A stretch of 42,407 nt of DNA from Nitrososphaerota archaeon (lineage in GTDB: Archaea; Thermoproteota; Nitrososphaeria_A; Caldarchaeales; JAVZCJ01). Shown piece by piece: positions 9,394-35,442 of this stretch. The translations under genes and the position numbers were made by a program. The DNA lies in contig JAWAZL010000012.1 in assembly GCA_038817485.1 (NCBI GenBank), forward strand, positions 1 through 42,407. Direction: 5' to 3'. Below the pieces are notes generated by a model, which ran no database searches, was not told the DNA's origin, and saw only the letters and a program-made list of their open reading frames with translations. Numbering within the stretch: position 1 is the stretch's first letter; every line of letters starts with the position of its first letter.

Positions 9394-10328
9394 GCAACTA
9401 AATGCCCCTCTTCAATTTCTAATAATTCAGGATTGTTTTCAATACATTTATCCATTGCATATTCACACCTATTACTAAATCTACATCCTTTAGGAGGATT
9501 TATTAAACTAGGTACTATTCCTGGAATTGTTGCAAGCCAATCAACATTACGTTTAGGCAATGCTTTAAGTAAACCAATCGTATATGGATGCTTAGGGTTT
9601 TTAAAAATTTGTTTTATAGAGCCTTTCTCAACTATTTTTCCTGCATACATTACAGCAACTCTATCACACATTTCAGCTATTACTCCAAAATCATGACTTA
9701 TTAATAATATTGAAATATTAAATTCTCTTTGTAACTCTTTCATTAATTCAAGTATTTGAGCTTGAATTGTAACATCAACAGCAGTTGTAGGCTCATCTGC
9801 AATTACAAGTTTAGGTTTACAAGCTAGAGCCATGGCTATTACAACTCTTTGCTTCATTCCTCCACTAAGCTCATGAGGATATTTTCTTAAAGTTTTCTCA
9901 GGTTCTGGCATTCCAACAATTTCAAGTAATTTAGCAGCCTCCTTATAAGCGTCTTTTTTAGACATATTTTTATGAAACATTAAAACTTCAGCTATTTGAA
10001 AACCAACATTCATTAATGGATTTAATGAAGTATTAGGATTTTGGAAAATCATTGATATTTTATTTCCTCTTATTTGATTCATTTCTTCTTCATTTTTAGA
10101 TAGTAAATCTTCATTGAGAAACATTATTTTCCCACTAACTTTACTATTTTTAGGAAGGAGTTTCATTATAGCTAAACCAGTAGTTGATTTTCCACATCCG
10201 CTTTCTCCTACAAGACCAAGAGTTTCCCCTTCATTAATTTCTAAATCTATCCCATCAACTGCTTTTACTTCCCCTTCATCAGTCTCAAAGTAAACTTTTA
10301 AATTTGATATTTTAAGTAATTCTAGCAT
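9369..10328 (-). CDS. dppD: Peptide ABC transporter ATPase, OppD/DppD type
   Basis: This 319-residue partner ATPase has Walker A GESGCGKS, Q-loop FQNPN, signature LSGGMKQR, Walker B LVIADEP and H-loop ISHD. The C-terminal oligo_HPY domain has the cysteine set CRFSNRCEYAMDKC plus a late ACHL. The methionine in LSGGMKQR is typical of DppD and distinguishes it from DppF. Its start codon overlaps the dppC stop in a TAATG arrangement, so the two are coupled. Together with DppF it hydrolyses ATP on the cytoplasmic face of the DppB/DppC channel. Confidence 0.93.
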   Translation of the reverse strand: MLELLKISNLKVYFETDEGEVKAVDGIDLEINEGETLGLVGESGCGKSTTGLAIMKLLPKNSKVSGKIMFLNEDLLSKNEEEMNQIRGNKISMIFQNPNTSLNPLMNVGFQIAEVLMFHKNMSKKDAYKEAAKLLEIVGMPEPEKTLRKYPHELSGGMKQRVVIAMALACKPKLVIADEPTTAVDVTIQAQILELMKELQREFNISILLISHDFGVIAEMCDRVAVMYAGKIVEKGSIKQIFKNPKHPYTIGLLKALPKRNVDWLATIPGIVPSLINPPKGCRFSNRCEYAMDKCIENNPELLEIEEGHLVACHLINMK

Positions 10329-24080: not shown

Positions 24081-25373
24081 TTGAAAAGTGTATATACTTC
24101 AGATATACTTAATATGGAAGAAGGTAAAACTGTTGAAATAATGGGATGGGTTTATAATAAGAGAATACATGGAAATTTATTATTCATAGATTTAAGAGAT
24201 TCTAAGGGTATTATACAAATAACTATTAAAAAAGGTATTGCAAGTGATAAAAGTATAGAAATAGTTAAAGATATTAATAAAGAGTCTTCAATAAAAGTTT
24301 TAGGAATAGTAAAAAAAGACCCAAGAGCACCAAATGGAGTAGAAATAATTTGTAAAGAAATTGAAGTTATTGGTTCATCTTATCAAGAATTTCCTATAAA
24401 ACCGGGAGCAGGGACTAGATTCTTATTTGATAATAGGCATTTATATCTTAGAAGCAGAAAAGTATCAGCAATAATGAAAATAAGGTCTGCTTTTTTAGAT
24501 GCTGCACGCGAATGGTTTAAGGAAAATGATTTCATAGAAATTGATTGTCCAATATTTATAACTGCTGCATGTGAAGGAGGAGCAACATTATTTCCAGTAG
24601 ATTATTTTGGAAGAAAAGTTTATTTATCACAAAGTGTTCAATTATATCAAGAAGCAGCAATTTATGGGCTTGAAAAAGTTTATAGTATTCAACCCAGTTT
24701 TAGAGCTGAATTAAGTAGAACAAGAAGACATTTAACAGAATTTTGGCAAATAGAAGCTGAAATTGCTTTTGCAAAACTTGAAGATATTATGATTATTCAA
24801 GAAAAACTCTTAAATCATATTGTACATGCATTAGCTGAAAGATGTATAGAAGAATTTAAAATATTAGGGAAAAAAATAAATGAAAAAATTGCTGAACCGC
24901 CTTATGAAAAGATTACTTATGATGAGGCATTGGAAATACTTCACAAAAATGGAGTAAAAATAGAGTGGGGAGAAGATTTTGGAGCTGATGAAGAAAGAGT
25001 TTTATGTAATCAATTTGAAAAGCCATTCTTTGTTACACATTACCCAAGAAAAGCAAAAGCTTTTTATCATATGCCAGATGAAAAAAGGCCAGAAGTTGTA
25101 AAATGTGTTGATTTATTAGCTCCTAAAGGATATGGAGAAATTTCTGGTGGAGGTCAAAGGATACACGATTATGAAGAATTAATCAATAGTATAAAATTAT
25201 TTAATTTAGATCCAAAGGACTATGAGTGGTACATAGATTTAAGAAAATATGGAAGTGTTCCACATTCAGGTTTTGGGTTAGGAGTTGAAAGAACTCTTAG
25301 ATGGTTACTTGAATTGCCACATATAAGAAGTGCGTGCTTATTTCCAAGAACACCTTCAAGAGTATATCCATAA
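24081..25373 (+). CDS. asnS: Asparaginyl-tRNA synthetase
   Basis: The 430-residue class IIb synthetase has an N-terminal OB-fold anticodon domain (VEIMGWVYNKRIHGNLLFIDLRD). The catalytic core carries motif 2 (FRAELSRTRRHLTEFWQIEAE) and motif 3 (GFGLGVERTLRWLL). GGGQRIHDYEEL and the ending LFPRTPSRVYP favour AsnRS over archaeal AspRS. It charges tRNA-Asn directly, so this archaeon need not rely on the amidation route for Asn-tRNA. The start is TTG, eight bases after GAGGG. The methyltransferase gene follows 14 bases later, so the two are probably cotranscribed. Confidence 0.9.
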   Translation: MKSVYTSDILNMEEGKTVEIMGWVYNKRIHGNLLFIDLRDSKGIIQITIKKGIASDKSIEIVKDINKESSIKVLGIVKKDPRAPNGVEIICKEIEVIGSSYQEFPIKPGAGTRFLFDNRHLYLRSRKVSAIMKIRSAFLDAAREWFKENDFIEIDCPIFITAACEGGATLFPVDYFGRKVYLSQSVQLYQEAAIYGLEKVYSIQPSFRAELSRTRRHLTEFWQIEAEIAFAKLEDIMIIQEKLLNHIVHALAERCIEEFKILGKKINEKIAEPPYEKITYDEALEILHKNGVKIEWGEDFGADEERVLCNQFEKPFFVTHYPRKAKAFYHMPDEKRPEVVKCVDLLAPKGYGEISGGGQRIHDYEELINSIKLFNLDPKDYEWYIDLRKYGSVPHSGFGLGVERTLRWLLELPHIRSACLFPRTPSRVYP

Positions 25374-25387
25374 AGTAATCTTAAAAA

Positions 25388-26104
25388 ATGAAAATAAATG
25401 GTTTTAAAATAGAAATATTTGAAGATGTTTACAAACCGTCAGAAGATACTTTTCTTTTATATGATTCGATAATTAATAATTATGAAAAAAGTTTTGAAGT
25501 TGGATCTGGAGTAGGTTTAATAACTCTTAAACTTGCAAAAAAATCAAATTATGTTTTAGCTTCAGATATAAGTTTTGAAGCAACTAAGAATACATTATAT
25601 AATGTTAAACAAAATCTTTTAAATGATAAAGTAGATATTGTATGTGGAGATTGTTTGTCATTTTTAAAAAATAAAATATTTTTTGATTTAATAGTTTTTA
25701 ATCCACCTTATTTACCATCTGAAAATTTTAATAAAAAAATTTTTGATTTATCATGGTGTGGTGGAAAAAGAGGATTTGAAATAACATTGAAATTTCTTAA
25801 AGAAGCAAAGAAGCATATAAATGAAAAAGGTACTATAATGATAATTTCATCTTCCTATATAATAAATGAAGTTTTAAATATAATTAAAAAAATGAATTTA
25901 AAATACTCAATTAAAAGAGAGAAAAAGATGTTTTTTGAAAAAATATATGTAGTAGAAATAAAAAAAAGGAGGGAAATAAAAAATAAGCATAATATTCGGA
26001 GTTACCACTCTTCCTCTTCTTCCTCTTCCGGTTCTTCTAGTTCAAATTCTTCCTCTTCCTCAAATTCTTCTTCCTCAAATCCTTCCTCTTCTTCCATTTT
26101 CTAA
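25388..26104 (+). CDS. HemK/PrmC (Mtq2-like) class I methyltransferase with aberrant Ser-rich tail
   Basis: Residues 1 to about 200 form a compact SAM-dependent methyltransferase: EVGSGVGLITLKLA (SAM loop), ASDISFEA, and the catalytic NPPY in VFNPPYLPS, which binds a glutamine amide. Archaeal proteins of this length without the bacterial N-terminal domain are Mtq2 orthologues that methylate the GGQ motif of release factor aRF1 together with Trm112, which is also encoded in this window (31034-31411). Homology should stop near KKRREIKNK (about 25985). The frame instead continues 35 codons as a poly-Ser tract because it runs antisense through the acidic microprotein gene. An eight-A run at 25960 could mark a frameshift that removed the normal stop. 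The tail is probably not functional. Confidence 0.85.
   Translation: MKINGFKIEIFEDVYKPSEDTFLLYDSIINNYEKSFEVGSGVGLITLKLAKKSNYVLASDISFEATKNTLYNVKQNLLNDKVDIVCGDCLSFLKNKIFFDLIVFNPPYLPSENFNKKIFDLSWCGGKRGFEITLKFLKEAKKHINEKGTIMIISSSYIINEVLNIIKKMNLKYSIKREKKMFFEKIYVVEIKKRREIKNKHNIRSYHSSSSSSSGSSSSNSSSSSNSSSSNPSSSSIF
25960..25983 (-). terminator. Oligo-T terminator for the acidic microprotein gene
   Basis: On the minus strand this stretch reads T6, ATTTCCCTCC, T8, starting about 19 bases after the stop codon of the microprotein gene. Oligo-T tracts are the standard intrinsic termination signal for archaeal RNA polymerase. It lies inside the methyltransferase coding region on the other strand, where the same bases encode lysines. 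Confidence 0.5.
26002..26097 (-). CDS. Poly-glutamate microprotein (31 aa)
   Basis: On the minus strand a complete small gene encodes 31 residues: Met, then runs of four to seven Glu interrupted by Gly6, Phe7, Phe12, Phe18, Leu20 and Pro23, ending in Trp31. Some 23 of 31 residues are Glu, so the product would be extremely acidic and probably disordered alone. Evidence that it is real: a perfect AAGGAGGAG Shine-Dalgarno nine bases before the ATG, a TTTAAATA promoter box upstream and oligo-T downstream. The regular spacing of aromatic residues suggests short linear motifs for binding a partner. I recognise no family; Sem1/Dss1-like acidic adaptors and DNA-mimic proteins are loose analogies only. 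Its reverse strand is the odd Ser-rich tail of the methyltransferase frame. Confidence 0.75.
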   Translation of the reverse strand: MEEEEGFEEEEFEEEEEFELEEPEEEEEEEW

Positions 26105-26150
26105 CTCCTCCTTGAAGCTTCCTTATATAATAAAAACGTCTATTTAAACT
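26098..26150 (-). promoter_or_regulatory. Promoter and strong Shine-Dalgarno of the acidic microprotein
   Basis: Read on the minus strand: AAAG-TTTAAATA (box at 26141-26148), then about 28 bases to a start region, then AAGGAGGAG (26105-26113) followed by TTAGAAA and ATG. The Shine-Dalgarno is the best match to the anti-SD in the window, which implies high translation of a very small product. Confidence 0.6.
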
Positions 26151-26197
26151 TTACTTTTTATAATAAACTTAATAAGTAAGAAAAATTAAGGGTTTAA

Positions 26198-26667
26198 GTG
26201 AGGAACAATTAAAACTGTTTACTTTAAAAATTCAGGAGATCATACTAAAGAAATTTTTGAAAATAGTTAAAGAATTTATTAAGGAGGAAAAAATAAAGAA
26301 CATAGTTGTTGTATTTACAACAGGTAAAACAGGAGCCTTTGTATCTTCAATTTTTAAAGGATAGAATGTTATGGTTGTTACTCATTCAACAGGATTTGCT
26401 AAACCAAATTATCAAGAATTATTAGAAGAAAATTTAATACAATTCTTCCATTGGAAATTATCGCAAACACTTTAAGATTATTTGATGAAGGTACTAAGGT
26501 AGCTATTGAAATAACTATTATGGCTACAGATGCTGAACTTATAAACGCAGGAGAGATATGTTATAGCTATTGCTGGAACAGGAAAAGGGACAGACTGCTT
26601 TAATTAATGAAGCAGCAAATTCATTTAATTTTTTGATTTAAAAATTAGAAAATTATTTGCAAACCAT
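26198..26667 (+). pseudogene. Decayed stand-alone pyruvate kinase C-terminal-domain protein
   Basis: Stitching frames recovers the archaeal single-domain PK_C family: TVYFKNSGDHTKEIFE, then KNIVVVFTTGKTGAFVSSIFKG, NVMVVTHSTGFAKPNYQELLEE, EIIANTLRLFDEGTKVAIEITIMATDAELI, an IAGTGKGTD-like stretch and NSFNFFDLKIRKL. Lesions include an extra base just after the GTG start (26198), a stop at 26362-26364 (TAG after FKG), a deletion that removes the segment normally holding THALSGVERA, and further frame changes near 26555, 26590 and 26630. No frame longer than about 60 codons survives. Relatives carry an alpha/beta domain with a bound ligand and no known activity. The region otherwise appears as an unexplained 570-base gap between genes. 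Confidence 0.8.
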
Positions 26668-27164: not shown

Positions 27165-27995
27165 ATGAAGCTAAAAGAAATACTATTAAGAATAAAGAAT
27201 ACTTTAAAAAATAAAGGAGAAAAAACATGGACTAATGAAGTAGAGAATAGACTTATAGATGTGGAAAGATTATATAAGCCTGAAGAATTTATACTTAAAA
27301 TAGAAGAAATAATAGGAAAATTAGATATTCAAATTCAAAAACTTAAAAAGAAATATTCTAATTTGGAGCAAAAAAATAAAGAATATTTTGAAAAATGCAT
27401 AGAGGCATTAGCAAATAAGGATGAAGAAAGAGCAAAAATTTATGCTCAAGAAGTTGCAGAAATTAGAAAACTTGCTAGAATGATATTTCATAGTGAATTA
27501 ATATTTGAACAAATAAAGCTTAGATTGGAAACAATAGAAGAATTAAGAGAAGTTGTTGGATTACTTACACCTTTAAATAAAGTAATTTTAAGTATAAAAG
27601 AAGAAGTAAGGGGAATTATCCCAGAAGCAGCTTTAACATTAACAGAATTGCAAGAAAGTATAGAAGGATTTATATCAGCTACAACAGGAATGCCAATAGA
27701 AGAGATTAGTATATCAACCGATTTAAGTGGAGAAGCTAGGGATATATTAGAGGAAGCGAGCATAGTTGCTTCTGAAAGGATAGAAAAAAGTTTTCCGGAA
27801 ATAATTGAAGCAAAAGATGGACAAATTAAGGAAATGGTTTATGCATATATTAAAGAACATTATAAAGATTTTGATATAGAAGAATGCGCATCTACTTTAA
27901 GTTTATCAGAAGAAGAAATTGAAAGAGCAATAGAAATACTTGAAAAGGAAGGGAAAATAATTTTAAAGAAAGAAAGAGAAGAAGAGCACTATTAA
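27165..27995 (+). CDS. cdvB: ESCRT-III-family cell-division protein CdvB with C-terminal winged helix
   Basis: The 276-residue protein has an ESCRT-III core of charged helices to about residue 205 (ERLYKPEEFILKIEEIIGKL..., EYFEKCIEALANKDEERAKIYAQEVAEIRKL), a short linker with SFPEI (209-213) that may serve as a MIT-interacting motif, and a winged-helix-like end (about 219-270: IKEMVYAYIKEHYKDFDIEECASTL...). In Sulfolobus the equivalent broken winged helix of CdvB binds CdvA and recruits the ring to the membrane. No cdvA is seen next to it. A TATA-like AATTTATAACG lies about 60 bases upstream. It should polymerise at mid-cell during division and be remodelled by CdvC. Confidence 0.92.
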   Translation: MKLKEILLRIKNTLKNKGEKTWTNEVENRLIDVERLYKPEEFILKIEEIIGKLDIQIQKLKKKYSNLEQKNKEYFEKCIEALANKDEERAKIYAQEVAEIRKLARMIFHSELIFEQIKLRLETIEELREVVGLLTPLNKVILSIKEEVRGIIPEAALTLTELQESIEGFISATTGMPIEEISISTDLSGEARDILEEASIVASERIEKSFPEIIEAKDGQIKEMVYAYIKEHYKDFDIEECASTLSLSEEEIERAIEILEKEGKIILKKEREEEHY

Positions 27996-28105: not shown

Positions 28106-28873
28106 TTGCTAAATATAGCTAATAATAAGATCATTTTCTTATTAATACTTTCTTCATTTTTACTTAGCTTATTTTATATAAATAATTCTTCATTAAATTA
28201 TGCTATAAATAAATATTCAACATATGAAAGAAATATTATAAAAATACCACTTGCGTTTCATACATTACCATTAAATAAGTTAAGCGAAAAGTTTAATGAA
28301 ACAGATAATAGTAAAATTAAACAAAAGATGGAAGAAATTATAGATGAAATGGTAATATGCACAAATAACATATGGAAAGTAGCAGGAATATTATTTTTAA
28401 AAGCAAGAATATTTTGGGAAGATGCTCCAGAAGCTCCAGATAGTTTTCATAGAGCTATGTTAAGGAAAAGAGTAAATGAAGAGTATCCATTATATTATCA
28501 TATTTTTCTTATCGATGGGCCATTTCCTGATTGGCCAATGACACAAGCAATAACTAAAGAATATTATGGAACTTTTTTAACATATGAAGCTTGGACTAAT
28601 GATCCAAATATCCCAGATGATGATAATGACCCAAAGAATGGATGGTTTGGTGAAGAACCTCCAGGAGAAATACTAGCGCATGAATTAGGGCATGCTCTTG
28701 GTTTATTACCTGGTCCAAAGGAAAAGAGAGCTACTCGTCATTATAGAGGCATAGCTTTCAGAGATAGATTAATGCATGAAGATATCCCTTGTGGGATAAC
28801 TCTCACGTATTTTGATATAATAGCTGCAAGGGATAGTCCTTTAGCTAGAAAATTTAAAGATTATAATGAGTGA
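28106..28873 (+). CDS. Secreted or membrane-anchored zincin-like metalloprotease
   Basis: The 255-residue protein has an N-terminal hydrophobic segment (residues 9-25), so it is exported or anchored. The motif EILAHELGHALGLLPG places H192, E193 and H196 as zinc ligands and general base, with the following Gly as in metzincins. The classical third histidine (HExxHxxGxxH) is proline here (P202). H212 in TRHYRG or H224 in RLMHED, the latter near a Met-turn-like methionine (M223), may replace it. It is most like matrixin-type M10 proteases, but divergent. The TTG start has no obvious Shine-Dalgarno. It lies between cdvB and cdvC, on the cdvB strand; whether it has any division role is unknown. 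Confidence 0.75.
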   Translation: MLNIANNKIIFLLILSSFLLSLFYINNSSLNYAINKYSTYERNIIKIPLAFHTLPLNKLSEKFNETDNSKIKQKMEEIIDEMVICTNNIWKVAGILFLKARIFWEDAPEAPDSFHRAMLRKRVNEEYPLYYHIFLIDGPFPDWPMTQAITKEYYGTFLTYEAWTNDPNIPDDDNDPKNGWFGEEPPGEILAHELGHALGLLPGPKEKRATRHYRGIAFRDRLMHEDIPCGITLTYFDIIAARDSPLARKFKDYNE

Positions 28874-28982: not shown

Positions 28983-30104
28983 TTATAAAGCCATCCATCT
29001 TCTAGCCCATTCTTCATATTTTTTAATACTATCAAAAGAAACACTTGGACGTCTAGTTTTTATAGCTTCCAAGAAATCGAACATATTAATTAATCTAGGT
29101 TTCATACCTTTTTCAGCAGCACCACTTTCAAATAATTCTCTTACAACTTTAATTTGAACACTCATGCAAATATCTCGAATATCGTTTCCACTATATCCAT
29201 TTGTTAATATTGCTAATTCCTCGAAATCAACATCATCACTAAGAGCTAAATCCTTTGTGTAATGTTTAAATAAAGCTAATCTATTTTCTTTATCTGGTAA
29301 AGGGACATAAATACGTTTTTGAAATCTTCTTATGAATGGTTCATCTAAATCCCAAGGCTTATTAGTAGCGCCTATAACATACAAATGCTCAGTTTTAGAT
29401 TTTTCAGAAAGACCATCCATTTCTTTTAAAATTTGATTCCTAGCTCTAGTTTCTCCACCAACCTCAACTTGATGAATAGAAGTAAGAGAATCTATTTCAT
29501 CTATAAATATAATAGCTGGACGATTTTTACTAATAGATTTCCTTGCAGAAGAAAAAAGCCTAGCAACATTTTTCTCAGATTCTCCAAGCCATTTAGAAAT
29601 TATTGAAGCTGCATCAACATAATAAAAAGTAGCATCTATCTCAGATGCTACAGCTGCTGCTAAAAGTGTTTTTCCACATCCTGGAGGACCATATAATAAT
29701 ATGCCTTTAGGCCAACCTAATGGAAATAAATCTGGCCTTTTAACAGGATAAACTATGCTTTCTCTTATAGATTTTTTAGCTTCTTCTAAACCTATTATAT
29801 CATTCCATGAAACATTTGGTTTTTCTTTTAAAACTAAATCATTAAATTTAGCCGCTTCCTCAACTTTAATAGATTCACCTTCCACCATCGATTCAAGTAC
29901 ATGAATACGCTCTTCATAGCTTTTCATTTTTTCATAATATACTTTTTTAATAGTAGGATCTTCAGTTAAATTATAAAGTTTAAAAAGAAGATCGACTACT
30001 TGTCGATATTTAAGAATAGCCATTGAATAATTTCCTTGTTTATCAAGTTTTATTGCTTCATTAGCTTTTTCAGAAGCTATTTTTCTAAGTTCTTCAGAAA
30101 ACAA
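28983..30104 (-). CDS. cdvC: CdvC, Vps4-like AAA ATPase with MIT domain
   Basis: An N-terminal MIT three-helix bundle (about residues 5-72) is followed by a AAA module: Walker A GPPGCGKT, Walker B IIFIDEID, pore-loop KWLGESEK, second region of homology GATNKPWDLDEPFIRRF and a Vps4-type C-terminus. The enzyme disassembles CdvB polymers by pulling them through its pore, docking through MIT on proline motifs such as those in the two CdvB proteins here. I favour TTG at 30104 as start, because AGGTGA ends five bases before it; the GTG three codons upstream lies inside that ribosome site. It is divergent from the second cdvB paralogue. Confidence 0.95.
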   Translation of the reverse strand: MFSEELRKIASEKANEAIKLDKQGNYSMAILKYRQVVDLLFKLYNLTEDPTIKKVYYEKMKSYEERIHVLESMVEGESIKVEEAAKFNDLVLKEKPNVSWNDIIGLEEAKKSIRESIVYPVKRPDLFPLGWPKGILLYGPPGCGKTLLAAAVASEIDATFYYVDAASIISKWLGESEKNVARLFSSARKSISKNRPAIIFIDEIDSLTSIHQVEVGGETRARNQILKEMDGLSEKSKTEHLYVIGATNKPWDLDEPFIRRFQKRIYVPLPDKENRLALFKHYTKDLALSDDVDFEELAILTNGYSGNDIRDICMSVQIKVVRELFESGAAEKGMKPRLINMFDFLEAIKTRRPSVSFDSIKKYEEWARRWMAL

Positions 30105-30206
30105 TTTTTTCACCTAAATACATATTTTATAGAAAAATAAATATATAAGTATTTTAAAATCCCATTTTAAGAAATATCATAAGATTTTTTTAAAAAAAAA
30201 GTTTAG

Positions 30207-30292: not shown

Positions 30293-30934
30293 ATGATTAA
30301 ATTTCCTTTTTGGAAAAAGCATGAAGAAATAAAAGTTCTTCCTCCCTCACCTCCTGAAAAGAAAACTACAGAAAGAATAAGCGAAATTATAATGCTTTTA
30401 AGAATTCAATCTGAAAAACTTAATAGAACAGTTCAAAGACTAACTGAAAGAGGAAAAGAACTTTTTGAAAAATGTGTAAAAGCAAGTCAAGAGCAAGATA
30501 CTGCTAGGGCTACTGTATATGCAAATGAAGTTGCACAACTTAGAAAAATGTCTAGAACTCTTCTTAGAAGTCAACTTTCACTTGAACAAGTTATTCTTAG
30601 ATTAGAAACTGTAAAGGAATTTGGAGATATAAGTAAAATTTTAGGACCTGCTGCGAATATTGTTCAGCAAGTTCAAGGAGAGCTAAGCGGAGTTGTTCCA
30701 GAAGTAGCTATTAATTTAAGTAGAGTGGGAGATATGCTAGATAATCTTTTAACAGAAGTTAGTAGTGTGTCTGGTACTGTAGTAAGTATCTCTGCATATG
30801 ATGAAGAAGCTAAGAAAATACTTGAAGAGGCAAATGAAATTGCAGCTCAAAGAATGAAAAATGCTTTTCCTGAATTACCTGAACCATATAAGTATTATGA
30901 AAATAAAGAAGAAGGTTCTTCTAAAAAGGAATAA
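30293..30934 (+). CDS. ESCRT-III-family protein, CdvB paralogue without winged helix (CdvB1/B2 type)
   Basis: The 213-residue protein is an ESCRT-III core without the winged helix: residues 27-190 are charged helices (ERISEIIMLLRIQSEKLNRTVQRL, RGKELFEKCVKASQEQDTARATVYANEVAQLRKM) clearly homologous to the upstream CdvB. It ends with FPELPEP (192-198), a proline motif of the MIM2 type that should bind the CdvC MIT domain, and a charged tail. The N-terminus has a basic/aromatic patch (MIKFPFWKKH) that may touch membrane. In Sulfolobus such paralogues form the constricting ring after CdvB is removed. It is divergent from cdvC, an arrangement that would allow co-regulation. Confidence 0.9.
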   Translation: MIKFPFWKKHEEIKVLPPSPPEKKTTERISEIIMLLRIQSEKLNRTVQRLTERGKELFEKCVKASQEQDTARATVYANEVAQLRKMSRTLLRSQLSLEQVILRLETVKEFGDISKILGPAANIVQQVQGELSGVVPEVAINLSRVGDMLDNLLTEVSSVSGTVVSISAYDEEAKKILEEANEIAAQRMKNAFPELPEPYKYYENKEEGSSKKE

Positions 30935-34611: not shown

Positions 34612-35442
34612 ATGGTAGAAATAACTTTGCTTGAATTGAATGAAAAATATGCAAAAATTATTTTAGAAGATATACCTTTAGCTATTGCAAATGCTATAAG
34701 AAGAAATATTATAAATGAAGTTCCAACAATGGCTATTGAAGAAGTTTTAGTTCTTGAAAATTCCTCAGCAATGTCTGATGAAGTGTTAGCTCATAGATTA
34801 GCTTTAATTCCATTTATTTCAGATATAGATAATTATGTTTTACCAGAAAAATGTGATTGTGGTAGTAAGCTAGGATGTAATAAATGTGTTGTAAGATATA
34901 CCCTTATAAAAGAAGCAAATGAAGATTTTATAACAGTATATTCAGGAGATATGGTTCCAGAAGATCCTAATACTAAAGTTATTCCAGTAAGTAAAAATAT
35001 TCCAATAGTTAAACTTGCTCCTGGACAAAAAATTTCCTTAGAACTTTATGTAAGAGTTGGTACTGGAACAAAAAATGCTAAATGGCAATCAGGAATAGCT
35101 ACTTTAAAATACATGCCTTCAATAACGATAGATTATGAAAAATGCGATTTATGTAAGAAATGTATTGATATTTGTGCTAAGAAAATTTTATTCATAAAAA
35201 ATGATAAAATATTTTTTGAAAATATTTATGATTGTACTTTATGTAAAGATTGTGTTAAAGTGTGTCCTAAAGAACCCCCAGCAATTTCAATTAGTGAAGT
35301 GAATAATTCTTACATACTTTATATCGAATCTTTTGGTTTTTTACCACCTCTTAGAATGTTTAAAGAAGCAATTAAAATTTTACATCAAAAATTAGAAGAA
35401 TTTGAGAAAAATATAAAAATTTTAGAAGGGAATAAGGAATGA
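34612..35442 (+). CDS. rpoD: DNA-directed RNA polymerase subunit D (Rpo3) with two 4Fe-4S motifs
   Basis: The 276-residue protein is the archaeal counterpart of Rpb3. It has the alpha-like dimerisation domain (IPLAIANAIRRNIINEVPTMAIEEV, LAHRLALIPF), a cysteine cluster CDCGSKLGCNKC (81-92) and an inserted ferredoxin-like domain. That domain has two complete CxxCxxCxxxC sets: C178/181/184/188 and C208/211/214/218. It pairs with subunit L to nucleate polymerase assembly. Many archaeal D subunits keep only one or no cluster, so the double set is of note. It opens the classical archaeal rpoD-L18e-L13-S9-rpoN-eno-S2 operon; its TGA overlaps the L18e ATG. Confidence 0.96.
   Translation: MVEITLLELNEKYAKIILEDIPLAIANAIRRNIINEVPTMAIEEVLVLENSSAMSDEVLAHRLALIPFISDIDNYVLPEKCDCGSKLGCNKCVVRYTLIKEANEDFITVYSGDMVPEDPNTKVIPVSKNIPIVKLAPGQKISLELYVRVGTGTKNAKWQSGIATLKYMPSITIDYEKCDLCKKCIDICAKKILFIKNDKIFFENIYDCTLCKDCVKVCPKEPPAISISEVNNSYILYIESFGFLPPLRMFKEAIKILHQKLEEFEKNIKILEGNKE

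Follow-up and report, generated by a model that had tools for sequence, protein, structure and literature searches.

An apparently unnamed family of glutamate-rich microproteins with aromatic C-termini in an archaeal phylum

Can an ORF of 31 residues, 23 of them Glu (74%), represent a genuine gene, and what would its product do? The question is raised by the sequence MEEEEGFEEEEFEEEEEFELEEPEEEEEEEW, encoded on the minus strand at positions 26002-26097 of the window, i.e., the whole stretch of 42,407 nucleotides analysed here. As an earlier note on this DNA had described, this is a poly-Glu microprotein with a C-terminal Trp; it also contains three Phe and one Leu, and its computed net charge and pI are approximately -23 and 4.05, respectively. 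The signals claimed around it were all located on the minus strand: a TATA-like box, TTTAAATA (26141-26148), a Shine-Dalgarno sequence, AAGGAGGAG (26105-26113), placed 7 nt ahead of the ATG with its AGGAGG core 9 nt ahead, and two oligo-T runs beyond the stop codon, T6 at 25978-25983 and T8 at 25960-25967, which likely constitute a terminator (25960-25983). The Shine-Dalgarno sequence is strong, being among the two best of the 42 predicted starts examined; the statement that it is the best in the window was slightly overstated, since the ABC gene with its start at 10328 carries AAGGAGGT. Shuffling the window 200 times under an order-2 Markov model yielded no ORF of 25-60 residues with at least 50% Asp/Glu.

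In the congener (G001), the counterpart of the microprotein is MEEEEGFEEEFEEEEEFELEEPEEEEEEW, and all elements of the locus are kept: the TATA-like box, with AAAGTAAAGTTTAAATA identical in both genomes, the Shine-Dalgarno sequence (AAGGGGGA), the ATG, the terminal Trp, the stop codon and both oligo-T runs. The insertions and deletions between the two ORFs comprise whole codons only, and all nine changed codons are synonymous. The convergent neighbour on the plus strand is an mtq2-like methyltransferase gene (25388-25966), located downstream of an AsnRS-like class II tRNA synthetase gene (24081-25373, plus strand). In the window, the mtq2 ORF extends from 25388 to 26104, having lost the stop codon relative to the congener, and runs into the microprotein antisense. 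Because the congener gene stops at EIKK, just past the position corresponding to 25966, we interpret the additional plus-strand segment (25967-26104), absent in the congener, as read-through; its Ser-rich "tail" thus reads as the microprotein antisense and not as a conserved protein part. Such read-through would conceal the small gene from annotation. Further along the plus strand, positions 26190-26645 contain a gene related to the congener's pyruvate-kinase alpha/beta-domain protein (L005:8492-9049, PF02887), here broken by frameshifts and a stop codon.

A direct protein search recovered the congener alone, because the peptide is short and of low complexity; relatives were therefore sought with DNA patterns and by synteny. 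On its own, the terminal EEEW pattern identified no relative outside the genus, and a Shine-Dalgarno-plus-ATG-Glu pattern added no relative by itself. The pattern EE[FWLC]EE..[FWLC]EE matched in 33 of the 44 genomes of the window's order, with a control near zero, and the ORFs read from these matches were of the same type, except at a second site in G008, where the match falls in a long chance frame. Copies in genus g11 were detected once the patterns allowed for its spacing and for TAG stops. Taking together the pattern matches, the window's genome, its congener and the g11 genomes (via EEEF-stop patterns), equivalent ORFs are present in 43/44 genomes and in all 14 genera of the order; the sole genome without one, G025, is 78% complete. 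The earlier note had proposed a search for small ORFs beside asnS/mtq2 in relatives, and Glu-rich ORFs were found there, as acidic/aromatic ORFs of 31-46 residues convergent with mtq2; the ATG, the ribosome site and an aromatic C-terminal residue are conserved, whereas a lack of conservation of the ATG, the ribosome site and the C-terminal Trp would, according to the note, have refuted the gene. The microprotein gene and mtq2 lie tail-to-tail in f1, g3 and g13; approximately 2.3-2.7 kb separate them in g8 and f4, where the orientation is likewise convergent. In the g11 genomes examined, asnS is the directly convergent neighbour and mtq2 does not intervene; in f2, the microprotein gene is located elsewhere. 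The asnS/mtq2 neighbourhood is found in three of the four families of the order.

Across the phylum, an acidic/aromatic-core DNA pattern, consisting of the order pattern with a further EE, matched in 147 of the 398 genomes sampled, while the reversed pattern, the one genome-wide background used for this count, gave a control near zero. This number is an undercount, because looking upstream of ABCE1 finds the gene in genomes missed by the strict pattern; a few of the 147 matching genomes may represent unrelated frames. Nearly every one of the 30 loci read first specifies a short peptide of the same type; two of the matches fall in long unrelated frames (L113 and L132) and three in zinc-ribbon fusions (L128, L129 and L135). 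A generic detector run over all loci yielded 112 distinct ORFs, whose core consists of 76% Glu, 12% Trp, 6% Phe and 3% Asp. The aromatic residues are mostly spaced every 4-6 residues, with spacings of 4 or 5 being the commonest. The last residue is aromatic in 96 ORFs (Trp in 65, Phe in 29 and Tyr in 2), against approximately 20, with a maximum of 35, when it was drawn at random from each core in 2,000 trials, and it is immediately preceded by EEE in 104. These microproteins of 20-60 residues apparently constitute an unnamed archaeal family distributed across the whole phylum; by gene content, the genomes resemble those of TACK archaea. Common descent across families is argued from composition and synteny, with low complexity barring proof; its support from synteny holds within the order and also between families linked to ABCE1, and is weaker from one of these groups to the other.

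Codon changes in 27 close pairs, some of which share a member, indicate what is being conserved. Third positions account for 275 changes, first positions for 57 and second positions for 43; 228 of the 313 changed codons are synonymous (85 are not), as compared with approximately 17% expected, a ratio somewhat flattered because the alignment of repeats favours matches. The pattern is that of purifying selection at the protein level, in which the product is conserved beyond the DNA alone. Judged by these comparisons, the tiny, nearly all-Glu ORF of the window is a genuine gene, and the earlier opinion that genes of this type are overlooked by length cut-offs is borne out by a real, conserved ORF; the high expression that the note proposed stands as a conjecture.

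In Pfam and NCBIfam, eight stand-alone peptides had no family match at E≤1, a search in which low-complexity correction could mask weak matches, and two relatives had no match in the PDB at E≤10. Zinc-ribbon-fused and LysW-like relatives gave weak family matches; the fused L135 scored 37.4 against an NCBIfam cut-off of 75 and 27.1 against a Pfam cut-off of 27. In the open literature searched, no description of such a microprotein family was found; within these libraries and this literature, the family is apparently new. AlphaFold returned one continuous helix spanning residues 2-30 with a pLDDT of 92.9, a prediction that is not trustworthy for poly-Glu; the chain is probably disordered.

Outside the order, the microprotein gene shares a strand with ABCE1 and precedes it by 49-612 nt at 43 loci belonging to 26 families, 12 of these loci coming from an ABCE1-centred and hence biased search; in 16 of the 43, TFS lies between the two genes. 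At roughly half of the loci found by pattern outside the order, ABCE1 is not adjacent, nor is it in the window's order. Among the upstream neighbours, named from their sequences, are THUMP, Cgi121, phosphoribosyltransferase, asparaginase or Sua5-like genes. ABCE1 of the window's genome is directly preceded by a Cgi121-like ORF with no microprotein between them, which suggests that the microprotein gene has changed location. In G044 there are two copies (L145 and L178), of which one lies next to ABCE1 and the other elsewhere. The release factor whose action immediately precedes that of ABCE1 is methylated by Mtq2 homologues. The spread over the phylum and the ABCE1 linkage go beyond what the earlier note described, and the linkage points to a role in translation; nevertheless, the adjacency may be mere housekeeping clustering, because the neighbours include tRNA-modification and metabolic genes.

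We infer that the microprotein works through binding, and the explanation that we favour, with a probability of roughly 35%, is that of a trans-acting acidic/aromatic docking peptide which, anchored by its C-terminal aromatic residue, would engage ABCE1 and related translation factors in the manner of a free ribosomal-stalk tail. The flexible tail of archaeal aP1 is acidic and, like the microprotein, has terminal hydrophobic/aromatic residues. It docks on aEF1A, aEF2, aIF5B and aABCE1, with a conserved Phe entering hydrophobic pockets (PMC6791870). By analogy, the Glu stretches would grip a basic surface of the partner, while the internal aromatic residues and the terminal one, with its carboxylate, would occupy hydrophobic pockets. 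The likeliest clients would be ABCE1 and further translation factors that bind the stalk or act after termination; the peptide could recruit, shield or time them. The conservation in the order, the phylum matches, the synonymous codons, the aromatic ends and the adjacency to ABCE1 and to asnS/mtq2 are all counted in support of this docking role, and the near-invariant EEE-[W/F]-COOH end argues for a binding pocket and against bulk charge. Against it, stalk tails rely on hydrophobic residues clustered close to the C-terminus and not on a Trp every 4-6 residues. In addition, the microprotein is free-standing, with Trp/Phe repeated along the chain, and lacks the N-terminal dimerisation/ribosome-binding domain of aP1, most ORFs being too short for it and without a Pfam match. 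We consider it rather unlikely that this is an unrecognised core archaeal gene whose free-standing, stalk-tail-like product would control ABCE1-driven ribosome recycling across the phylum.

Nearly as good, and tentatively possible, is a Dss1- or SSB-tail-like mimicry of ssDNA or RNA, in which Glu would take the role of phosphates and Trp/Phe that of bases; the peptide would thereby cap or hand over basic proteins, such as OB-fold or RNA-binding proteins, Alba, histones or ribosomal proteins. The composition and the aromatic spacing fit this role, and the window's genome encodes an archaeal histone-like protein (L251:7530-7760). The bacterial SSB C-terminal tip and the T7 gp2.5 tail likewise combine an acidic stretch with a terminal aromatic residue, whereas the microprotein is a separate gene without an OB-fold and has a far longer acid-aromatic array. 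Dss1/Sem1 is also small, highly acidic and Trp/Phe-bearing, with a disordered chain such as is proposed for the microprotein, and its binding sites are disordered stretches joining aromatic residues and negative charge (PMC9381478); D/E repeats tune DNA/RNA-binding proteins (PMC10250230). However, the microprotein is approximately half the length of Dss1/Sem1, is nearly all Glu with little Asp, and lacks a C-terminal helix segment outside the acidic run. The stand-alone peptides tested had no Pfam match at E≤1, the DSS1_SEM1 profile included, subject to the low-complexity correction mentioned above, and mimicry would leave the ABCE1 neighbourhood unexplained.

An Lto1-like adaptor, whose terminal Trp/Phe would bring the Fe-S assembly machinery to ABCE1, appears improbable. 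Eukaryotic Lto1 requires its C-terminal Trp (Phe in some organisms) for the Fe-S loading of Rli1/ABCE1 (PMC4523923), and the terminal aromatic residue and its carboxylate dominate recognition (PMC13082141). The microprotein shares with this CIA targeting-complex C-terminus a terminal Trp or Phe following an acidic residue, as well as the link to ABCE1; 94/112 ORFs end in Trp or Phe. Nevertheless, it lacks the deca-GX3 domain, and the third residue from the C-terminus is Glu and not Leu/Ile/Met, so that the end does not conform to [LIM][DES][WF]. Moreover, a published survey regards the C-terminal signal as a hallmark of eukaryotic CIA clients and reports its absence from archaeal orthologues (PMC10623007). 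Nor does the gene consistently accompany Cia2/MIP18: G029 and G031 carry the microprotein and have no match to the MIP18/Cia2-like PF01883, an absence that is uncertain in these incomplete drafts (95% and 93%).

A slightly lower probability is assigned to a cis-acting leader ORF, whose acidic nascent chain would stall or destabilise the ribosome, sense recycling and control the downstream ABCE1. Acidic nascent chains can destabilise bacterial ribosomes, and in 26 families the ORF lies just before ABCE1. This explanation is disfavoured because most copies in the order have their own TATA-like box, suggestive of an independent promoter, and nothing downstream on their strand; these copies, not located upstream of ABCE1, are under equal protein-level selection. 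TFS often intervenes between the microprotein and ABCE1, and in the window's genome it is the Cgi121-like ORF that directly precedes ABCE1.

Marginally less probable again is a bulk charge or metal/polyamine buffer with no specific partner; a charge buffer is one of the roles suggested in the earlier note, alongside an adaptor and a nucleic-acid mimic. The extreme charge would suit it, but buffering would need neither the conserved aromatic C-terminus nor the regular internal aromatic residues, and as a pure role it is disfavoured. A fortuitous reading antisense to the 3′ end of mtq2, suggested by the overlap of the two ORFs in this genome, is rejected with near certainty, since the congener has an intact microprotein although its mtq2 ends earlier, the ORF is conserved throughout the order and the phylum, and its codon changes are synonymous.

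A gene present in nearly every genome of the order and encountered across its phylum, for which no curated family exists, would fill a gap in the known archaeal machinery for information processing, probably in translation, and raises the question of whether Archaea possess a dedicated small ABCE1 partner. It makes concrete a blind spot: genes of this type escape notice when ORFs are cut off by length or filtered for low complexity. The window peptide, having no Lys or Arg, would not be cut by trypsin and could be overlooked in trypsin-based proteomics.

Similar acid-aromatic tails are fused to zinc-finger or LysW-like domains at L128/L172, L129/L150, L135/L153 and L160, and the f14 peptides (L121-L124 and L146) contain an internal EDWGE, the C-terminal signature of LysW. 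The LysW/ArgW amino-group carriers are likewise acidic, and in the L135/L153 relative a LysW-like zinc ribbon is joined to the tail; however, most microproteins lack a zinc ribbon and have a last residue other than Glu. A LysW mechanism was rejected for the window ORF, which has no zinc ribbon, no terminal Glu and no C-terminal EDWGE.

Near the microprotein gene, the window contains an ESCRT-type cluster of CdvB/Snf7-like and MIT-Vps4-like genes (27165-27995, 28983-30113 and 30293-30934), by which lies a metalloprotease-like ORF with the motif HELGHALGL (28106-28873). A protein resembling RNA polymerase subunit D, with a Cys-rich insert of ferredoxin-like type, is encoded at 34612-35442 on the plus strand of the window.
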